The notes under the pieces: generated by a model
Databases searched by the model: none
The model's input: the letters and a program-made list of their open reading frames with translations, nothing else
What the model was told of the DNA's origin: nothing
Shown here: in pieces, positions 23,026 to 35,283 of the stretch
Position numbering within the stretch: position 1 is the stretch's first letter
Layout: every line of letters begins with the position of its first letter
Assembly (NCBI RefSeq): GCF_027571385.1
Contig: NZ_CP085636.1
Span: forward strand, 2,480,001-2,544,000
Direction of reading: 5' to 3'
DNA length: 64,000 nucleotides
DNA from: Shewanella sp. MTB7
GTDB taxonomy: Bacteria > Pseudomonadota > Gammaproteobacteria > Enterobacterales > Shewanellaceae
Program-made: the position numbers and the translations under genes

Positions 23026-23766
23026 TTAGTAGATGGCGTTTAATCCCGCTTCTACAAAGACCTTCTTGATCTGTTCCATTGTTTCACCCGATGGAGGAGA
23101 GATGTCATTGAGTTGATACTTTTCTCCCATCGCTTCCCACTTATGCTTGCCCAACTCGTGATAGGGAAGTAACTCAACCTTTTCGACATTGGTCATCGGT
23201 TTAAGAAAATCGGCCAGTTTCTTGGCTGAGGCTATATCGTCAGTGAACCCACCAACCACAACATAACGTATCCAGGTTTTTTGCTGGCGTTTATGTAAAA
23301 GCTCAGCAAACTGCAACGTGCGATAATTACTGACTTGAGTGAGGTCAATATGGCGCTGATCATCAATATGTTTAATGTCTAGTAGTACCAGATCGGTATT
23401 ATCGAGTAGTTCATCAATGATTGGGGTGTATTTTCTGACGAAACCATTGGTGTCTAGGCAAGTGTGAATACCCTCTTTTTTACAAGCTTCAAAAAGAGCT
23501 GAAACGAATTCCGCTTGTAATATGGCTTCACCACCACTGGCAGTTACACCACCACCGCTGGATTCAAGAAAAGGGCGGTAGCTGATAATTTGAGACATGA
23601 GTTCTTCGACCTGCACATCCGTGCCGCCGTGTAGATCCCAAGTATCGCGATTGTGACAGTACTGACAACGCATTAAACAGCCTTGCATAAAGGCGATAAA
23701 CCTTATGCCTGGACCGTCAACGGTACCAAAGGATTCCAGTGAGTGGATCCGACCAGTTACTGCCAT
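23026..23766 (-). CDS. pflA: PflA, pyruvate formate-lyase activating enzyme
   Basis: The 246-residue radical-SAM enzyme has exactly the length of E. coli PflA. The cluster motif CLMRCQYC (CX3CX2C) is near residue 30 and [11 protein letters not shown] is the SAM-contact motif. It makes the glycyl radical on Pfl[10 protein letters not shown] at 23766 has a GGAG site five bases upstream; the open frame further out is not family sequence. It follows pflB after 205 bases that hold a repeat and a hairpin, so it may be expressed at a lower level than pflB. Confidence 0.96.
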
Positions 23767-23844
23767 TGTGACTCCATATCTATAGTTGCAATTGTTAATG
23801 TTGTAGCTTTCATAACAATGCCACAATCTTAAGTTTTAAATAAA

Positions 23845-23971: not shown

Positions 23972-26254
23972 TTACATACCTTTAGTGAAGGTACGAGTGA
24001 TAACGTCTTGCTGCTGTTCTGGTGTCAGAGCATTGAAGCGAACAGCATAACCAGAAACTCGGATTGTAAGCTGAGGATACTTCTCAGGGTTAACAATCGC
24101 ATCTTCAAGCATTTCACGGTTCATCACGTTCACGTTCAGGTGCTGACCACCTTCACGGCTGTCGCTATGAGCAAAGTAACCGTCCATAAGCGCGGCTAAG
24201 TTAGTGCGACGACCATCTTCATCTTTACCTAACGCGTTTGGCACGATAGAGAAGGTATAAGAGATACCGTCTTGAGCGTGTGCAAACGGAAGTTTAGCAA
24301 CAGAAGTTAGTGATGCAACAGCGCCTTTCTCGTCACGACCATGCATAGGGTTTGCACCCGGAGCAAACGGAGCACCAGATGGACGACCATCAGGCGTAGT
24401 CCCCGTTTTCTTACCGTACACAACGTTAGAAGTGATGGTTAAGATTGACTGAGTAGGGATCGCGTTACGATACATCTTCATCTTACGGATCTTAGCCATA
24501 AAACGCTCTACAAGCTCAGTCGCTAGATCATCAACACGTGCATCGTTGTTACCGAACTTAGGATAGTCACCTTCGATTTCGAAATCGACAGCGATACCGT
24601 TTTCGTCACGGATTGGCTTAACTTTGGCAAACTTAATTGCAGAAAGAGAATCAGCAGCGATAGAAAGACCCGCGATACCACATGCCATAGTACGACGAAC
24701 GTCACGGTCATGAAGTGCCATAAGGGCAGATTCATAAGAGTACTTATCGTGCATGAAGTGGATAGCGTTTAGTGCAGTCACATATTGTGTTGCTAACCAA
24801 TCCATCATGGTGTCTAGGCGACCTAGCACATCATCAAAGTCTAAATACTCAGAAGTGATAGCATCGAACTTAGGACCAATTTGAGTCTTAAGTTTTTCAT
24901 CAACACCACCGTTGATAGCATAAAGCATTGTTTTAGCTAAGTTAGCGCGAGCTCCGAAGAACTGCATGTGCTTACCTACAACCATAGGGCTTACACAACA
25001 AGCGATAGCATAGTCATCTGAATTAAAGTCAGGACGCATTAGATCATCGTTTTCGTACTGAATTGAACTGGTGTCGATAGACACTTTTGCACAGTACTTT
25101 TTGAAATCTAATGGTAATTTTTCAGACCATAAAACAGTGATGTTTGGCTCTGGACTTGGACCCATGTTGTACAAGGTGTGCAAGAAACGGAAGCTAGACT
25201 TAGTCACCAAAGTACGACCATCAACACCCATACCACCGATAGACTCTGTCGCCCAAATTGGGTCGCCAGAGAATAGCTCATCGTATTCAGGAGTACGTAG
25301 GAAACGAACCATACGTAGCTTCATCACGAAATGGTCAACCATCTCTTGAGCTTGTTGCTCAGTGATAACGCCATTTTTAAGATCACGTTCGATGAAAATA
25401 TCAAGGAAACTTGAAGTACGACCAAGAGACATCGCCGCGCCGTTTTGACTTTTAACTGCAGCTAGGTAGCCGAAGTAAGTCCACTGAATCGCTTCTTGTG
25501 CATTGGTAGCAGGTAGCGAGATGTCGAAGCCATAGCTTGCAGCCATTTTCTTCATCTGACCTAGTGCACGGTGCTGTTCAGCAATCTCTTCACGAAGCTG
25601 CATAGTGTAAGACAAGTCTTCACCTGTTTCAAAATCTGCTTGAAGTGAACCAAACTGAGCAAACTTGTCAGCCATCAAATAATCGATACCGTAAAGTGCG
25701 ATACGACGGTAATCACCAATGATACGACCACGACCGTAAGCATCAGGTAAACCAGTCAAAATACCTGATTTACGACAACCCATGATTTCAGGTGTGTAGA
25801 TATCGAAAACACCTTGGTTGTGAGTCTTACGCAGCTCAGAGTAAACGTATTTAACGTCAGCATTTAACTCACGGTCATAGGCTTTACAAGAACTTTCAAC
25901 CATACGAATGCCGCCATTTGGCAACATTGCACGCTTAAGTGGCGCTTCAGTCTGTAGGCCAACAATAGTTTCAAGCTCTTGCTCGATATAGCCAGCAGCG
26001 TGTGAAGTGATGGTAGATACAACTTCAGTATCAAAATCAACAGGTGCGTGAGTCGCGTTTTCCTGTTTGATGCCTACCATTACCTTGTCCCAAAGCTTTG
26101 TAGTAGCAGAAGTTGCTTCAGCTAGGAAAGATTCATTACCTTCATAAGGCGTGTAGTTAGCTTGGATAAAGTCACGAACGTTGACTTCAGTTTTCCATTC
26201 GCCAGAAGCAAAACCTTCCCACGCGTTAGCAAACTTTTCAGTTTTTTCGGTCAT
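23972..26254 (-). CDS. pflB: PflB, pyruvate formate-lyase (glycyl-radical enzyme)
   Basis: The 760-residue enzyme is the size of E. coli PflB. It has the adjacent active-site cysteines (AIACCVSPM, near residue 415) and the C-terminal glycyl-radical motif RVSGYAVRF (near 735). It cleaves pyruvate with CoA to formate and acetyl-CoA without oxygen. The start ATG reads [15 protein letters not shown] as in enterics. A GntR-type operator overlaps a candidate promoter about 220 bases upstream. The next gene downstream is its activase. Confidence 0.97.
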
Positions 26255-26474: not shown

Positions 26475-26493
26475 AAATTGGTAAGACCAATTT
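26475..26493. promoter_or_regulatory. GntR/FadR-type operator (PdhR- or LldR-like), pflB side
   Basis: AAATTGGTAAGACCAATTT is a perfect 19-bp palindrome around a 3-base centre and matches the AATTGGT-N3-ACCAATT consensus known for PdhR (pyruvate) and resembling LldR (lactate). On the minus strand a possible -10 TATACT (26505-26500) lies just upstream, placing the operator over the start site, as expected for a repressor. Confidence 0.7.
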
Positions 26494-26828
26494 ACCATTA
26501 GTATATTAACACAAGCAAACATAGGCTGCATCTTAATACATTTTGTTTTGGTCTATAAATTCAAAAACTGTTATCCATGCATCAGTTTTTAGCTAAAATA
26601 ATGTTTGCACCTAACACTAATGTCAGTTCCTAGAATGATTGTGAGTACATTATGTTGCGCTTATTGAATGTTCATGTAAGTCCAAGTAACAATCACGATG
26701 GGTGAGTTTGTCACTTGCATAACTAAAGAATTATCTCTCTATGCAATTTATTTTTCGTCATCACTAACACTGATATTAAGTGTTATGTGCTAAATAAAAT
26801 AAGCACCAGATAAATGCTGAGGTGAATT

Positions 26829-26869
26829 CAAGACAGATTGAATCCTGCATTTCCAAGTAGCTTGGGTAT
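26829..26869. repeat. Intergenic repeat, copy 2
   Basis: GATTGAATCCTGCATTTCC followed by AAGTAGCTTGGGTATA matches the right half of copy 1 at 23845-23899 (CTGAACCCTACATTTCG then GTGGTTTGGGTAT). The left arm is shorter here. Confidence 0.6.
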
Positions 26870-26870
26870 A

Positions 26871-26903
26871 GATAACGAGAAGTGAAATGCACCTCTCGTT
26901 ATC
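26871..26903 (-). terminator. Hairpin downstream of the DUF3360 gene
   Basis: GATAACGAGAAGTG pairs with CACCTCTCGTTATC (14 pairs, one mismatch) around an AAATG loop, 12 bases past the stop. No strong T tract follows on the minus strand. Confidence 0.6.
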
Positions 26904-26914
26904 AGTCTTCTCTT

Positions 26915-28447
26915 TTATAAGAGTGCTGGAATGCCAGTGATCATCCCGACTGCAAGCATGGCTGCTAAACAGATCACAAACGCGAGGCCTGGGATAATAA
27001 CGCGATCAGCGAGTGACAATGATTTTGCACGTTCTTTATCACCGATAAGTCCGTTGTTGTCCAAAAACATCGTTAATGCCCATGCCAATACTGGATTTGC
27101 AACAAAAGAGGCGAATATACAAATACCTGCAGCCTGACTGTTCTGAGTATTTTTCACCATCTGCATTCCCGCCTCGAGTAGAGGTAAAAATACGCCTACA
27201 AGTAACGCGATTGACATGACTGGTTGCCAGACTGCGATATCCATAGGATAGCCAATGATAGCCACTACGATACATAAGATACCCAGTAAAATGGCACCTG
27301 CAGGGATCGGACGTTTTGCCGTTGCAGCAGGGATCATGTAAGTCCCCCAAGATGAAGTGATATTACCACCACCAACAGCAGTACCTACGATTTGGCGCAG
27401 TGAACAAGTCGTCATGGTGTCATCAACATCCATCAAGACTTTTTCTGCACCTTTAGGGTAGTTAAGTTCTTGGAATATACGGTGTCCCAAAAAGTCTGGT
27501 GACCACATGGCCACAGCCAAGATAGCAAAAGGCAAAGAAGCAATGAAATGCTGCAGATTAGGTAAGCCTAACTGCCAGCCTTGCTCAGTAGAGCCCCACC
27601 AATAAACAGGGTTAAGATTTGGAATGCCAGGTTCGGTGACAAACTGTAGATCCAGCCCTGCACCTAGCACGAATGCCATCGCTACCGCGGCAATAGAGCA
27701 AAGTGGGATAGCTAACCAACGTTTCCCCACCTTTGCCAGGATCGCATATAAAATCACATTGGCAAGTAAGATGAAAAACGCAACATAACCTAAGCTGTAA
27801 CCGAGATCATGCTTAGCCTGTAAATTACCTGCCCATTCAAATAGTGAACTTATCTGACCCTCTGCACCCATAAAGCCAAGGAAGACCAGTAAACCGCCAG
27901 CAACACCGCTACTGGTAAGGTTCACTAACCGTGACCCACCTTTTACATAGCTTAATATAAGACCAAACACCCCCAGTAAAATAGCAAGCGCAAGTGGATG
28001 TGCACCCGCCAGCGCAATTGCACCGATAAGTGGGATCATTGGACCGTGATTACCGGCCAAGTTCGCTTTAGGATTGAAAAATCCTGAGCTAATAATACAA
28101 AATAGTAGTGCTGGAATAAGCATCTCTACACGGACAACTTGAGTCGCAAATTCTGCGCCCAGATTAACATGTTCCCATTTCTCGCTTAGGCCCGCAGCCC
28201 ATGCTGCCATTACCGCTGAGTACATCACGGTAATACCGATAGTACCTGCAATCGCCGGGACAAGATCTTCCCATTCAAAGCGGAAATCTCTCCCTGGTAG
28301 GTTAAGTCCCCAGCGCTTAGGCTTCATGATTTTCAATTCATTGTCTAAGTACTCTTCACGAGTGGCAAACTCAGACGCAGGACGATGAAGCTCTTGATAA
28401 GATTTAGTGGAGTCTTCGCTCTGTTGGTTTTTCACAGTTTCTGACAT
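26915..28447 (-). CDS. DUF3360 family membrane transporter
   Basis: The 510-residue polytopic protein has about 12-14 hydrophobic helices after a 70-residue hydrophilic N-terminus. The overall pattern and motifs such as FFNPKANLAGNHGPMIPL and GTAVGGGNITSSWGTYMIPAA resemble the NCS2/SulP (uracil/xanthine and sulfate permease) fold. The family is unnamed (DUF3360) and found in Vibrio and Shewanella. It lies upstream of pflB on the same strand but as a separate unit, and carries the same PdhR/LldR-type operator about 200 bases before its start. A substrate linked to pyruvate, lactate or formate metabolism is therefore a reasonable inference, not proved. Confidence 0.8.
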   Translation of the reverse strand: MSETVKNQQSEDSTKSYQELHRPASEFATREEYLDNELKIMKPKRWGLNLPGRDFRFEWEDLVPAIAGTIGITVMYSAVMAAWAAGLSEKWEHVNLGAEFATQVVRVEMLIPALLFCIISSGFFNPKANLAGNHGPMIPLIGAIALAGAHPLALAILLGVFGLILSYVKGGSRLVNLTSSGVAGGLLVFLGFMGAEGQISSLFEWAGNLQAKHDLGYSLGYVAFFILLANVILYAILAKVGKRWLAIPLCSIAAVAMAFVLGAGLDLQFVTEPGIPNLNPVYWWGSTEQGWQLGLPNLQHFIASLPFAILAVAMWSPDFLGHRIFQELNYPKGAEKVLMDVDDTMTTCSLRQIVGTAVGGGNITSSWGTYMIPAATAKRPIPAGAILLGILCIVVAIIGYPMDIAVWQPVMSIALLVGVFLPLLEAGMQMVKNTQNSQAAGICIFASFVANPVLAWALTMFLDNNGLIGDKERAKSLSLADRVIIPGLAFVICLAAMLAVGMITGIPALL

Positions 28448-28644
28448 ATTTTCTCATTCTCCGAGAAGAACATAGTGATTCATCTAATTCGATGACAACT
28501 TAAGTGATCTATGAGTGTTAGCTTGAGTATTACGAGCCTCTTTGGCTGCACTATTCATTGAGTCAACTAGCCAGCATAATATGATAAAGAATCAAAAATC
28601 GATTCTGTCAGCGATGCTGTTGTTTTCTCTAACAATCTTTATTT

Positions 28645-28661
28645 AATTGGTAAGACCAATT
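28645..28661. promoter_or_regulatory. GntR/FadR-type operator (PdhR- or LldR-like), DUF3360 side
   Basis: AATTGGTAAGACCAATT is identical to the core of the site upstream of pflB, and identity extends to TTACC beyond it. Further out both share TTAACACArGCAAA at the same distance. On the minus strand a possible -10 TAAAAT (28677-28672) lies just upstream of the operator. Confidence 0.7.
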
Positions 28662-29210
28662 TACCTTATGAATTTTAACACAGGCAAAGATGATCTTCAT
28701 CAAGTATCAATATTCTTGAATAGGGTGTTTGAGCTATTTGAGATCTACTTAACAACTAATGCAGGGATTGCTAAATAAAGAGGGTGTTGGTGTATATATT
28801 TCTATGCTCAACATCACGCATTCAATCAATGTGCGATGCCTGTCACTGATTTAGCTTGTTGTTGTTGAGTGTTGGTTTTTTATGTTTTATTTGACGCTGA
28901 TCGCTAAATCGAGATTGCTAAGCGAGATGACTATCACGTTTGCGCGGTGTGAGTTCGTTGGTTGTTAGCCTCTAGCTCAATATCACTAATTTACTTTTGG
29001 CACTGGCCTTATTATCAATGTTTATGATATCAGGCTGAATGTCGGCGGTTTAACAGTAAATAAGTGTATGAGTTTTTTATTTATTAGAATCGTTTGAGTT
29101 TTTTCTAGCTTGCAGTTAAATGTGAATGGTTATAAATCCTTACTTAACAATGTGTTCGGTTGCAAAGTGTTAAGGTTTGAAATTTTACATTTTGAAACAC
29201 TCACCTCAAG

Positions 29211-29229
29211 GTATCAAGTTCATTGATAC
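29211..29229. promoter_or_regulatory. Palindrome upstream of the formate channel gene
   Basis: GTATCAA-GTTCA-TTGATAC is a perfect 7-bp inverted repeat about 135 bases before the start of the channel-CBS gene. The half-sites are oriented opposite to an FNR box, so it is not a standard FNR site. Regulator unknown. Confidence 0.45.
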
Positions 29230-29364: not shown

Positions 29365-30849
29365 ATGACGTCCAATAATGAGGTTAGTGAATTAATGCTA
29401 ACTAATATTCTTCATAAAACAATGGAAACGTCAAAACCAGTGCAAGCCAGCTTATATGAACAAGCTGAGTTTTATGGTCAGTCAAAAGTCATAAAATCTG
29501 CTTGGCAATCTTTTGGTTTAGCTGCTTTTGCCGGTGCATTTATCGCCTTGGCTTTTGTCTTCTTTATTACCGTAACAACTGGTAACGAAGGTGGTTCCTG
29601 GGGGTTAGTCCGACTTGTAGGAGGCTTAGCCTTTAGTTTAGGTTTAATGTTAGTGGTGATATGTGGCGGAGAGCTCTTTACCAGTACCGTACTTAGCAGT
29701 GTAGCTTGGGCGCAAAAGTTAGTGACAACGCGAGATCTCATCAAATGCTGGTGCCGAGTTTATATAGGGAACTTATTAGGCGCTATGATTATGTTGACAT
29801 TAATCATATCAGCTCGTATGCATGAACTTGATGGCGGATTGTGGGGGCTTAATGCGCTACAGATAGCACAACATAAGCTTCATCATGGTTGGCTACAGGC
29901 TTTTGTCCTTGGTGTACTTTGCAATATGTTGGTGTGCTTAGGTGTGTGGATGACGTTTGCCAGTCGAGATGCATTAACCAAAGCGATACTACTCATGCTT
30001 CCTGTTGCTATGTTTGTCAGTAGTGGTTTTGAGCACAGCATTGCTAATCTGTTTATGGTGCCTTTAGGAATTGCTATTTCTCAATTTGCACAACCTGAAT
30101 TTTTTACCTCATTGGGTATAGACTCTGCACAGTTCGCCGATCTGACCTTAAGCAATTTTATATTCAACAACCTTATTCCTGTGACCTTAGGCAACATTGT
30201 CGGTGGTGGTGTATTTGTAGGTTTAGGTTATTGGCTTATCGAAAAATCAGGAAAAACTGTTGAACTCTCTCTAGTCCATAGTGTTTCACCATTAGAAAGT
30301 GTTACCCCAATACACCCATTACCTACTTCTGGAGTTTCTCATAAAATGCCTAAAACAATTCAAAAATTATGTGTCCAAGACCTAATGGACACTAACCCGT
30401 TGACAGTCTCTTCTGATCTGTCGGTGTATGCTGGTTTGGCCATACTTACCGATAATGATTGCAGAAGTGCTCCTGTACTGGATGAGAAAAAACGCTTACT
30501 TGGTTTCATTTCACAACAAGATTTACTGCGTAGCTTATGGTCAGAAGAGTTTGCCAGAGGTATATCTTACAAAGTGGCAGACTTGATGCAAAAAGAGGTG
30601 ATGACCCTATCGCCGCAAGATTCGGTGGCTGAATTGATTGAGTTAATGGTGGTTGACCGTAGTAAGCTCTTTCCTGTGAATGAGTATGGGATATTAACGG
30701 GCAATACTTTCACCAGTTATGAAGAGAGATTACGTTGTGCTTCAGCCGATAAACCTAGCATGTTCCCTGTCTTGGATAAGGGGTTATTGTGCGGCGTTAT
30801 CACCCGTGAGGTGATTGCTAAAAAGATATGCGATATCTATAAGGTATAG
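29365..30849 (+). CDS. FocA/NirC-type formate channel with C-terminal CBS domains
   Basis: The 494-residue protein has an N-terminal formate/nitrite transporter domain of six membrane helices (about 40-290) with both family signatures, CGGELFTS and GVLCNMLVCLGVWM. A hydrophilic linker follows, then a CBS pair (about 330-490: VQDLMDTNPLTVSSD and VADLMQKEVMTLSPQD). Classical FocA is about 285 residues without CBS domains. CBS pairs usually bind adenine nucleotides, so channel gating by energy state is a natural inference. A GGAG site precedes the ATG. It sits beside pflB, so formate is the likely substrate; nitrite cannot be excluded. Confidence 0.9.
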   Translation: MTSNNEVSELMLTNILHKTMETSKPVQASLYEQAEFYGQSKVIKSAWQSFGLAAFAGAFIALAFVFFITVTTGNEGGSWGLVRLVGGLAFSLGLMLVVICGGELFTSTVLSSVAWAQKLVTTRDLIKCWCRVYIGNLLGAMIMLTLIISARMHELDGGLWGLNALQIAQHKLHHGWLQAFVLGVLCNMLVCLGVWMTFASRDALTKAILLMLPVAMFVSSGFEHSIANLFMVPLGIAISQFAQPEFFTSLGIDSAQFADLTLSNFIFNNLIPVTLGNIVGGGVFVGLGYWLIEKSGKTVELSLVHSVSPLESVTPIHPLPTSGVSHKMPKTIQKLCVQDLMDTNPLTVSSDLSVYAGLAILTDNDCRSAPVLDEKKRLLGFISQQDLLRSLWSEEFARGISYKVADLMQKEVMTLSPQDSVAELIELMVVDRSKLFPVNEYGILTGNTFTSYEERLRCASADKPSMFPVLDKGLLCGVITREVIAKKICDIYKV

Positions 30850-32309: not shown

Positions 32310-33215
32310 CTATCTCTTTATTTGCCTACTGCGGCTTAATCGTCTTGCTTCTGTGATGATACAGTCACGCAGTGGGTTTTCACCTGAGTCAGCACGCCAG
32401 ATGAATGAGAGGTGGCGTTGCATATTAAGCTGTGGTGTTTGTAGGATAACTAATTCACCCTTCGCGACCTCATTCTCAACATCAAGAAAAGGTAAGCTGC
32501 TGATATATTGTCCATTTTTAACCAGGGACTTTAATACCGATACTTGCTCATATTCCTTCCATACATTGAGTTTTTCGATAACACCGTGAATGGCCCCTTC
32601 GAAAATCCTTCTGGTTCCAGCCCCTTGTTCCCGTAACACCCATTTTGCTTGTTCGAGTTGCGATAAACTGGTCATTTCACATTTAGCATAGGGGTGGTGA
32701 GGCGAAGAGAAGACCACCAGATGATCATCAATCCATCTTTCCTGATGTAATCGAGTATCGTCGTTTCGGCCTTCAATGATGCCAAGATCAAACTCATAGT
32801 TGAGCAAGCCATCGATAACATTTTCGGTATTCTCAACCATCAGATCGATCCTTAGCTCAGGAAAATCAGTATCAAGCCTGCTGATGAGTTCTGGAATTAA
32901 ATGCTCTGCTGCGGTTTGGCTTGAACATAATCGAAATTTACCACTGATAAGGTGTTGTTCATGAAGACCTAATTCAATATGTTGCGCATCTTGGAGTAGA
33001 CGTCTTGCTTTAGGGCGAAGCCAGTTTCCCCAATGGCTTAATGTTAACCTGTTACCTTGGCGGATAAAGAGTGGTCGCCCGAGCAAATTTTCTAGCTGAC
33101 CCAGTGACATACTGACTGCCGATTGTGTCATAGATAATTTTCTTGCGGCAGCACTGACGCTTTCTAGACTGGCAACTGCATCAAAAACGGTGATCTGCTT
33201 GAGTGAATACTTCAT
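32310..33215 (-). CDS. LysR-family transcriptional regulator
   Basis: The 301-residue protein has the N-terminal winged HTH (LESVSAAARKLSMTQSAVSMSLGQLE) and a periplasmic-binding-type effector domain (about 90-295). The sequence resembles the YeiE/CbbR branch rather than CysB. An inverted repeat of LysR-box type lies 45 bases upstream of its own start, which suggests autoregulation. No divergent partner gene is close, so targets are unknown. Confidence 0.85.
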   Translation of the reverse strand: MKYSLKQITVFDAVASLESVSAAARKLSMTQSAVSMSLGQLENLLGRPLFIRQGNRLTLSHWGNWLRPKARRLLQDAQHIELGLHEQHLISGKFRLCSSQTAAEHLIPELISRLDTDFPELRIDLMVENTENVIDGLLNYEFDLGIIEGRNDDTRLHQERWIDDHLVVFSSPHHPYAKCEMTSLSQLEQAKWVLREQGAGTRRIFEGAIHGVIEKLNVWKEYEQVSVLKSLVKNGQYISSLPFLDVENEVAKGELVILQTPQLNMQRHLSFIWRADSGENPLRDCIITEARRLSRSRQIKR

Positions 33216-33259: not shown

Positions 33260-33278
33260 CTATCAATATAATTGATAG
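33260..33278. promoter_or_regulatory. LysR-type operator (ATC-N9-GAT)
   Basis: CTATCAAT-ATA-ATTGATAG is a perfect 8-bp inverted repeat that contains the ATC-N9-GAT / T-N11-A pattern of LysR-family sites, directly before the LysR gene. Confidence 0.55.
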
Positions 33279-33516: not shown

Positions 33517-35283
33517 TTAAACATCCCATTTGGTGTACTTAGCTTTGGCTCTTTGTAACTTGTCATAGGCAACAAGTAGGCTTTGGTGCTTCTTAAAGCT
33601 GAGTATTTGCTTCACTGATTTAAGATCATAGCCTTGCGCTTCATTTAACACGTGCAGTTTTGCTTCGTTATAGTCGACTTCGGTAAACATGCGCTTGAGT
33701 TTAGTTTCATACTGCTCAAGATCTTTACCGTCTAGCTCAATATTAATGATGGCCATCATTGCATGGTAGAAACGCAGACGTTTCTGTTGAGCAGGACTGA
33801 TCCCACCGGCATTAAAGTCGGTGGTCCATTGCGCCCATTCGTAGGCAGATTCAAGGTCATTAAGGGCTAAATTGAGCAGACATTTAAACTCACCCATTCT
33901 AAGAGTTGCCCAAGGTGTGTTGGCATCGACGCCCAAACCTAATAGCTGATCCAATGGCTGGAACTCATCGAGATCAAGTTGATCGACTGTGTCTAAAATC
34001 GTCTGTGTCAGCTCAACATCGCTGCTGTCGTTTAACCATTGCTGGATCATGGCGCGCAATGCCATACCTCGGTTATTATTGACCCAAGTTAGTTCATAAA
34101 CTGGGTAAATTTCCGAGTAACCAGGAACAAGCACACGACAAGCATAAGTGCCGAGGTGAGCGTAATCTGCAATGTAAACTTCGGCGCCGAGTTTATGGAA
34201 TTGACCTAAAAGCTGAGCGTACTCCTCTTCGGTTGTGCCAGTGAAGTTCCAGTCCACAAATGGGAAGTCAGCATTTTCTTTAAACATATCCCACGAGATA
34301 AGCCCTGAAGAGTCGATAAAGTGAGTTTCAAGATTGGTATGTTCTGCTACTTCGTCATTATCAAATGATGGGCTAGGGAATATGTCGAGATCTTTCAGGC
34401 TACGGCCCTGAAGAAGTTCTGTAACGGTACGCTCTAAGGCGATTTCAAACCTTGGATGTGCCCCGAAAGAAGCGAAACATCCACCATTTTCTGGATTGAA
34501 AAGTGTGACACAGATAACCGGGAAATCTCCCCCTAATGACGCGTCAAAGCAGGTGATCGGGAACCCCTGTTTTTCGAGCTCATCGATCGCCGCAACGACT
34601 TTCGGGAAACGATTCACGACGTCGGCTGGAATTTCTGGCAGAGATATCGCTTCGGCAATGATGCGGTTCTTAATGTAACGCTCGAAACATTCAGAAAGAG
34701 CTTGTGTACGAGCTTCTGTCTGGCTGTTACCCGCGGCCATGCCGTTGCTGACAAACATGTTACCAACGATGTTCATCGGAATATAGGTTAGCTGACTGTC
34801 AGATTGACGTGTAAAAGGTAAGCTACATACGCCGCGCTCTGGATTACCAGACTGAATATCAACGAGACCTTCTAGGGTCACTTCGCCTTCAGGATCGTAG
34901 TGATCCCATAAAGCTTGGTTCATTAGTCCTTCTGGACGTGTGTTGTCAGAAATTGGGAACCATTTTTCGTTAGGGTAATGAACAAAGTCACTGTTGGCCA
35001 CTTTGTCACCTAAATGGAAATCGGCAAAGAAGTAATTACAGGCTAAACGCTCGAAGTATTCACCCAGTGCGCTTGCTAGTGCAGCATCACGACTCGCGCC
35101 TTTACCATTGGTAAAGCAGGCTGGGCAGTTACGGTCACGGATGTGCACAGACCAAACATAAGGTACTGGATTCAGCCATGAGGCTTCCTCTATATCAAAG
35201 CCCAGATCAACGAGTCTTTGTTGCATGGTGGCGATGGATACTTCGAGTGCTTCGTCTTTACCTGGAATGTAGGTGTGATTCAT
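33517..35283 (-). CDS. ycaO: YcaO, partner of RimO in ribosomal S12 methylthiolation
   Basis: The 588-residue protein aligns with E. coli YcaO (586) along its length: FIPGKD-like start, EASWLNPVPYVWSVHIRD, FTNGKGA, ALGEYFERL, ALSECFERYIKNR and VTELLQGR, which are the ATP-binding segments of the YcaO fold, plus a C-terminal TPR-like helical region. YcaO uses ATP for amide-backbone or related activation chemistry; the E. coli protein assists RimO in beta-methylthiolation of S12. No azoline or thioamide peptide cluster surrounds it, so the housekeeping role is preferred. Single gene with its own terminator. Confidence 0.92.
   Translation of the reverse strand: MNHTYIPGKDEALEVSIATMQQRLVDLGFDIEEASWLNPVPYVWSVHIRDRNCPACFTNGKGASRDAALASALGEYFERLACNYFFADFHLGDKVANSDFVHYPNEKWFPISDNTRPEGLMNQALWDHYDPEGEVTLEGLVDIQSGNPERGVCSLPFTRQSDSQLTYIPMNIVGNMFVSNGMAAGNSQTEARTQALSECFERYIKNRIIAEAISLPEIPADVVNRFPKVVAAIDELEKQGFPITCFDASLGGDFPVICVTLFNPENGGCFASFGAHPRFEIALERTVTELLQGRSLKDLDIFPSPSFDNDEVAEHTNLETHFIDSSGLISWDMFKENADFPFVDWNFTGTTEEEYAQLLGQFHKLGAEVYIADYAHLGTYACRVLVPGYSEIYPVYELTWVNNNRGMALRAMIQQWLNDSSDVELTQTILDTVDQLDLDEFQPLDQLLGLGVDANTPWATLRMGEFKCLLNLALNDLESAYEWAQWTTDFNAGGISPAQQKRLRFYHAMMAIINIELDGKDLEQYETKLKRMFTEVDYNEAKLHVLNEAQGYDLKSVKQILSFKKHQSLLVAYDKLQRAKAKYTKWDV

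Follow-up and report, generated by a model that had tools for sequence, protein, structure and literature searches.

In Escherichia coli, the genes coding for pyruvate formate-lyase (PFL) and its partners form a ycaO-focA-pflB-pflA cluster. In the Shewanellaceae, the pyruvate-responsive regulator PdhR has an expanded regulon (PMC5343134, PMC3223726), to which the text of PMC5343134 assigns sdhCDAB, gltA, aceAB, oadGAB, pflBA, focA and lldP-dld in addition to the operon of pdhR itself. Another regulator, PflR, was predicted to govern the fermentation of pyruvate to formate in part of the genus; it is listed for 10 of the 16 Shewanella in Table 2 of PMC3223726, the text of which gives no family, sites or targets for it. 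LldR is absent from 2 of the 16 in the same table. PdhR control of pflBA in Shewanella is therefore already published, and the new part reported here is a gene of the DUF3360 family as a candidate target; the main text of PMC5343134 does not mention DUF3360.

The window, i.e. the whole stretch of 64,000 nt that was analysed (G000:C1:2480001-2544000), belongs to the genome of Shewanella sp. MTB7 (6.37 Mb, one contig). The gene order is pta, ackA, a yfbV-type DUF412 gene, pflA, pflB, the DUF3360 gene, focA-CBS, an AI-2E family gene, lysR and ycaO; the DUF412 gene and focA are on the plus strand and all the others on the minus strand. The genes central to the analysis are the following:

23026..23826, minus strand: pflA, PFL-activating radical SAM enzyme (Pfam Radical_SAM and Fer4_12)
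23972..26254, minus strand: pflB, pyruvate formate-lyase (Pfam PFL-like and Gly_radical; ATG at 26254)
26915..28447, minus strand: DUF3360 (PF11840) protein, 510 aa, predicted UraA-fold transporter (ATG at 28447)
29365..30849, plus strand: FocA formate channel fused to two CBS domains (TIGR04060; Form_Nir_trans and two CBS stretches)
32310..33215, minus strand: LysR-type regulator, candidate PflR (HTH_1 and LysR_substrate)

As in the E. coli cluster, a formate channel gene adjoins pflB and ycaO (33517-35283) adjoins the cluster, the latter being also found beside DUF3360-pflB in Photobacterium (L124). However, the slot directly upstream of pflB is held here by DUF3360, and FocA is divergent and fused to CBS domains. 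Our main reading, with a probability of roughly 0.7, is that two PdhR operators lie just downstream of the -10 boxes of pflB and DUF3360, and that the DUF3360 protein would be a UraA-fold secondary transporter, most likely of a monocarboxylate of the PFL pathway. It draws on sites, their conservation and positions, synteny, co-occurrence and a fold predicted from sequence.

Twin operators at the pflB and DUF3360 promoters

Upstream of both genes lies the same 21-base sequence AATTGGTAAGACCAATTTACC, with AATTGGTAAGACCAATT as the operator core, 221 nt from the start codon of pflB and 197 nt from that of DUF3360 as measured from the coordinates. A second shared block, TTAACACArGCAAA, starts 30 nt after the operator start in both cases (26506-26519 and 28675-28688). 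On the minus (coding) strand it reads TTTGCyTGTGTTAA and merges into an extended -10 (TGTGTTAATAT and TGTGTTAAAAT), which is followed by 10 nt and then by the operator:

26476..26496, minus strand: PdhR-type operator of pflB (core palindrome 26476-26492 plus TTACC flank)
26503..26508, minus strand: candidate -10 box of pflB, TAATAT (10 nt upstream of the operator, overlapping the second block)
28645..28665, minus strand: PdhR-type operator of DUF3360 (core palindrome 28645-28661 plus TTACC flank)
28672..28677, minus strand: candidate -10 box of DUF3360, TAAAAT (10 nt upstream of the operator, overlapping the second block)

The first-pass annotation of this DNA had described identical 21-base operators about 220 and about 200 bases from the two genes, a second block at equal spacing and -10 boxes beside both operators, and all of this was recovered. 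By its sequence, what had been described as the second block is the predicted core promoter, and the operators would lie at about the transcription start in both promoters. A TA...T pattern at the -10 offset is present in 26 of 35 aligned DUF3360 promoters (the window and 34 relatives) and in 20 of the 30 aligned pflB promoters having the site.

The palindrome AATTGGTNNNACCAATT occurs in the 6.37-Mb genome in four exact copies and in two copies with one mismatch, for about 0.04 exact copies expected from base composition (estimated by hand). The exact copies lie at pflB, at DUF3360, on the pdhR-aceE promoter (L004), where aceE comes after pdhR, and at L001. A scan of this kind, with comparison to pdhR/aceEF, had been proposed in the first-pass annotation; here it yielded the palindrome on the promoter of pdhR itself. 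One of the one-mismatch copies (L006) is located ahead of an operon containing the oxaloacetate decarboxylase alpha gene; both the pdhR operon and oadGAB belong to the Shewanella PdhR regulon as published (PMC5343134). The exact copy at L001 (L001:1501-1517, G000:C1:854511-854527; AATTGGTATTACCAATT) precedes the gene of a DEAD-box RNA helicase, for which control by PdhR has no evident explanation.

The PdhR of this genome scores 413 bits against the NCBIfam equivalog (cut-off 330), and a search of the genome with it retrieved no close GntR protein other than PdhR itself. The next match is 29% identical, and the seven further GntR matches comprise five at 29-31% identity and two at 36% and 38% over about 70 residues. 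The shared operator is most likely bound by PdhR. The locus resembles the PdhR regulon of Shewanellaceae by its probable regulator and by pflBA, focA and oadGAB, which are members of that regulon, but differs in that DUF3360, and not focA, bears the operator. Indeed, none of the 25 focA upstream regions taken as a control from the same loci has a site within 2 mismatches, and PdhR control of focA was discarded for these loci.

Conservation was assessed in the best 80 of 329 named DUF3360 loci, by searching 350 bp upstream with at most 2 mismatches. The operator was found in 32/32 loci of Shewanella, 2/2 of Parashewanella, 5/5 of Ferrimonas and 2/4 of Motilimonas, and in 0/37 loci of seven other genera (Vibrio 21, Pseudovibrio 9, Photobacterium 3, and Agarivorans, Psychromonas, Thalassotalea and Corallincola 1 each); 25 of the 80 loci have an exact copy. 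The first-pass annotation had named absence of the site from DUF3360 homologues elsewhere as evidence against its proposal, and the outcome is divided: the 39 loci of Shewanella, Parashewanella and Ferrimonas all have the site, and the 37 loci of the seven genera all lack it. Conservation of a shared PdhR-type site at DUF3360 is supported for the former three genera. The operator is kept in two Parashewanella loci and in L074 with no pflB in the examined flanks, and in five Ferrimonas loci where pflB is not downstream.

On the pflB side, 30 of 32 Shewanella promoters, the window included, have the operator with at most one mismatch. L076 and L078 carry it at DUF3360, yet it is missing from the 350 bp next to pflB, so the two genes need not be co-controlled. 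Among the 30 pflB loci listed of the 96 genus genomes with pflB, an exact operator is present in 20/20 DUF3360-positive loci and in 3/10 negative ones (G462, G469 and G470); the seven other negative loci have a focA match directly upstream and no operator within 500 bp. The operator was found within 2 mismatches in 2 of 32 lysR upstream regions, both from Motilimonas, in which a single intergenic region serves lysR and DUF3360 alike. No other part of the pflB and DUF3360 promoters is as well conserved across relatives as the operator.

This conservation across three genera contradicts the reading of the palindrome upstream of DUF3360 as a chance match. Short sites can arise randomly, as the exact copy at the helicase gene may illustrate, but within 3 mismatches the two operators are the only matches in the window (four strand-wise), against a mean of 0.35 and a maximum of 3 in shuffled versions of it (0/100 reach 4), and we give this explanation practically no weight. 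It is also highly improbable that the shared promoter block reflects a recent duplication, the promoter having been copied with an inserted gene and being devoid of regulatory meaning for DUF3360. Such an event would account for the adjacency of the genes and for an operator, flank and -10 common to both promoters at equal spacing, but over 35 DUF3360 and 30 pflB promoters the operator persists while the upstream parts diverge (a LysR box lies at DUF3360 and not at pflB), and the site is retained in Parashewanella and Ferrimonas at loci where pflB does not directly follow DUF3360. The sites could finally belong to LldR or another lactate-sensing GntR regulator, with DUF3360 as a lactate carrier. 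The operator of E. coli LldR is close to this palindrome, and the genome has no match to the lactate permease family PF02652, which leaves room for another carrier. However, PF02652 was found in 77 of the 97 genus genomes, 39 of the 43 with pfl-type DUF3360 among them, which argues against DUF3360 as a stand-in for the permease; its absence from 4/43 DUF3360-positive vs 16/54 negative genomes gives no link. We consider this explanation improbable and prefer PdhR over LldR because the same palindrome sits on the pdhR promoter, PdhR matches its equivalog, the search with PdhR gave no second close GntR protein and PF02652 is missing from the genome. The first-pass annotation, which had called the site a PdhR consensus resembling LldR sites, is thus better supported for PdhR than for LldR.

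The LysR-type regulator, the FocA-CBS fusion and gene co-occurrence

Boxes of LysR-type regulators are dyads of the T-N11-A form. The LysR protein of the window has HTH_1 and LysR_substrate domains and a dyad box of this kind at its own promoter, as expected for the type, and candidate boxes are found at three genes of the cluster:

28705..28721, minus strand: candidate LysR box of DUF3360, ATTCAAGAATATTGATA (differing from TATCAAN5TTGATA at 2 positions; about 60 nt upstream of the operator start)
29212..29228, plus strand: candidate LysR box of focA (exact TATCAAN5TTGATA)
33261..33277, minus strand: candidate LysR box of lysR (exact; 45 nt upstream of the LysR start codon, suggesting autoregulation)

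With at most 2 mismatches, the box is found in 21/32 lysR, 21/25 focA, 30/80 DUF3360 and 2/62 pflB upstream regions, base-shuffled controls giving 3-5%. The element TCAA-N5-TTGATA lies 59-61 nt upstream of the DUF3360 operator start in 27 of 34 Shewanella and Parashewanella loci (at most 2 mismatches), the seven others having no LysR box at DUF3360. Two of the six exact copies of the genome, those at focA and lysR, lie in one 4.1-kb stretch. Single matches mean little because the genome as a whole has an excess of the motif (101 places with at most one mismatch vs 20 for the reversed control; in the window, 72 matches at up to 3 mismatches vs a mean of 51), and the argument rests on the conserved position. 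The pattern fits an autoregulating LysR protein that would also control focA and DUF3360. This protein is probably the published PflR (PMC3223726). Neither the LysR box nor the link to the FocA-CBS fusion appears in the first-pass annotation.

The FocA of the window matches TIGR04060 with 402.9 bits (cut-off 290.1) and has an extra pair of CBS domains. Among the 90 genus genomes with a focA match over the cut-off, frames of at least 450 aa are found in 40/42 DUF3360-positive vs 1/48 negative genomes; the CBS domains were checked in the window protein, and the long frames elsewhere are presumed to be CBS fusions. No paper uniting FocA, a CBS domain and a formate nitrite transporter was found. 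The fusion, which appears to travel with DUF3360 and the LysR regulator, may be a gated formate channel. DUF3360 does not strictly replace FocA, since nearly all DUF3360-positive genomes retain focA (42/43 with a match over the cut-off, G471 being without). In 47 DUF3360-negative genomes, focA is co-directional and directly upstream of pflB in 11, near it in another arrangement in 35 and not near it in one; the count leaves out 7 of the 54 negatives (G404, G415, G422, G448, G450, G459 and G482), which have no pflB or a split one, or no intact focA over the cut-off.

The 97 genus genomes were drawn from a larger group, and PF11840 is present in 49 of them: 42 have an intact pfl-type copy (over 860 bits to PF11840), one a broken copy (G442), five another type only and one a fragment (G470). 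All 42 intact pfl-type genes lie directly upstream of pflB on the same strand, with a gap of 388-850 nt. The LysR gene is present in 43/97 genomes, 42 of which also have DUF3360 (G442 counted); DUF3360 occurs alone in G471, LysR alone in G456, and 53 genomes have neither (Fisher p 3e-25, on counts that ignore shared ancestry). DUF3360, this LysR and a long, presumably CBS-fused, FocA therefore co-occur. In G442, with its broken DUF3360 gene, a stop interrupts the LysR match too. In G470, DUF3360 is reduced to a decayed fragment, LysR is missing and FocA is short, which looks like joint loss of all three.

Among the best 80 of 329 named loci, DUF3360 is directly upstream of pflB in 56, including 19/21 in Vibrio, where the remaining two end at a contig edge, and 3/3 in Photobacterium. 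A transcript shared by DUF3360 and pflB is possible in Vibrio, judging from this gene order.

Fold and possible substrate of the DUF3360 protein

The DUF3360 protein matches PF11840 with 976.4 bits (cut-off 26.2) and is 97% identical to its relative in Shewanella hanedai and 94% to that of S. pealeana; the family has at least 1,423 database members. Its predicted structure adopts the UraA fold (NAT/SLC26/SLC4) over residues 39-479, a match over most of the membrane domain with Foldseek TM-scores to the best match of only 0.54-0.60. This model supports the proposal of the first-pass annotation that DUF3360 is a transporter. The fold is shared with NAT/NCS2, SLC26/SulP and SLC4 carriers, but DUF3360 differs from these families by the lack of a family-level sequence match and of any STAS domain reported by Pfam. 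Proteins of this fold transport nucleobases, anions or bicarbonate, so that the fold names no substrate.

It is unlikely, in our view, that DUF3360 transports nucleobases or inorganic anions and is only indirectly co-regulated with PFL, for example through bicarbonate or pH balance. The best structural matches are indeed NAT/NCS2 nucleobase carriers, followed by SLC4 and SLC26 anion carriers, and some database members are named xanthine/uracil/vitamin C permease. However, 22 DUF3360 members gave no Pfam match to PF00860 (NCS2/NAT; up to E 10) or PF00916 (SulP/SLC26), and sequence-level homology to either is weak at most: hhalign against the members of the same genome gave a probability of 1.4% and a local P of 0.037 for PF00860 (n=10), and a local P of 0.18 for PF00916 (n=3). 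The genome is moreover already provided with 10 PF00860 and 3 PF00916 matches over the cut-off, and the genomic and regulatory links point to PFL and FocA.

A monocarboxylate of the PFL pathway is thus preferred as the substrate of DUF3360. Formate is the leading candidate, at somewhat under even odds, and pyruvate is possible but doubtful; otherwise, another small acid may be carried. Formate is placed ahead of pyruvate because DUF3360 appears to share control with FocA. From the sites and their context we infer PdhR binding, repression, the effect of pyruvate, and the identity of the LysR regulator and the sign of its action. At low pyruvate, PdhR would occupy the start regions of pflB(A) and DUF3360 and both would be blocked; pyruvate would release PdhR, and the pyruvate-cleaving enzyme and the DUF3360 transporter would be switched on together. 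The LysR protein would additionally control DUF3360, as well as focA and itself, and DUF3360 would be the meeting point of the pyruvate signal and of a second, probably formate-pathway, signal.

More tentatively, DUF3360, the FocA-CBS fusion channel and the LysR regulator may represent a co-inherited formate/pyruvate module of marine gammaproteobacteria. DUF3360 would then be a new family of UraA-fold monocarboxylate transporters joining FocA beside pyruvate formate-lyase, DUF3360 being switched by pyruvate via PdhR and by a second metabolite via LysR, and FocA being nucleotide-gated via its CBS domains. No paper was found under DUF3360 or PF11840, and neither a role of DUF3360 as a PdhR target nor as a UraA-fold transporter of a PFL module was found in the literature searched, although RegPrecise tables may list the target. 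Two regulators, gene order and fold tie this domain of unknown function to pyruvate formate-lyase and provide a specific transporter hypothesis for it in Shewanella.

A second DUF3360 gene is present in the genome (L141:5989-7503; G000:C1:1249488-1251002), 50% identical to the first. It has no operator and no PFL gene nearby, its neighbours coding for an Ap4A phosphorylase, a DUF3703 protein and an acyl-CoA ligase; the family as a whole is therefore not tied to PFL, and no regulatory clue was gained from this paralog. Likewise, none of the nine Pseudovibrio loci among the best 80 of 329 has pflB in the examined flanks. For Pseudovibrio, an association of DUF3360 with the glycyl-radical enzyme YjjI seemed promising in L090, yet it was found in only 2/9 of these loci and was not retained. 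In L090 itself, from the alphaproteobacterium Pseudovibrio exalbescens, a DUF3360 with 78% identity is accompanied by a cation ATPase and a YjjI/radical-SAM pair, an occurrence that looks like horizontal transfer.
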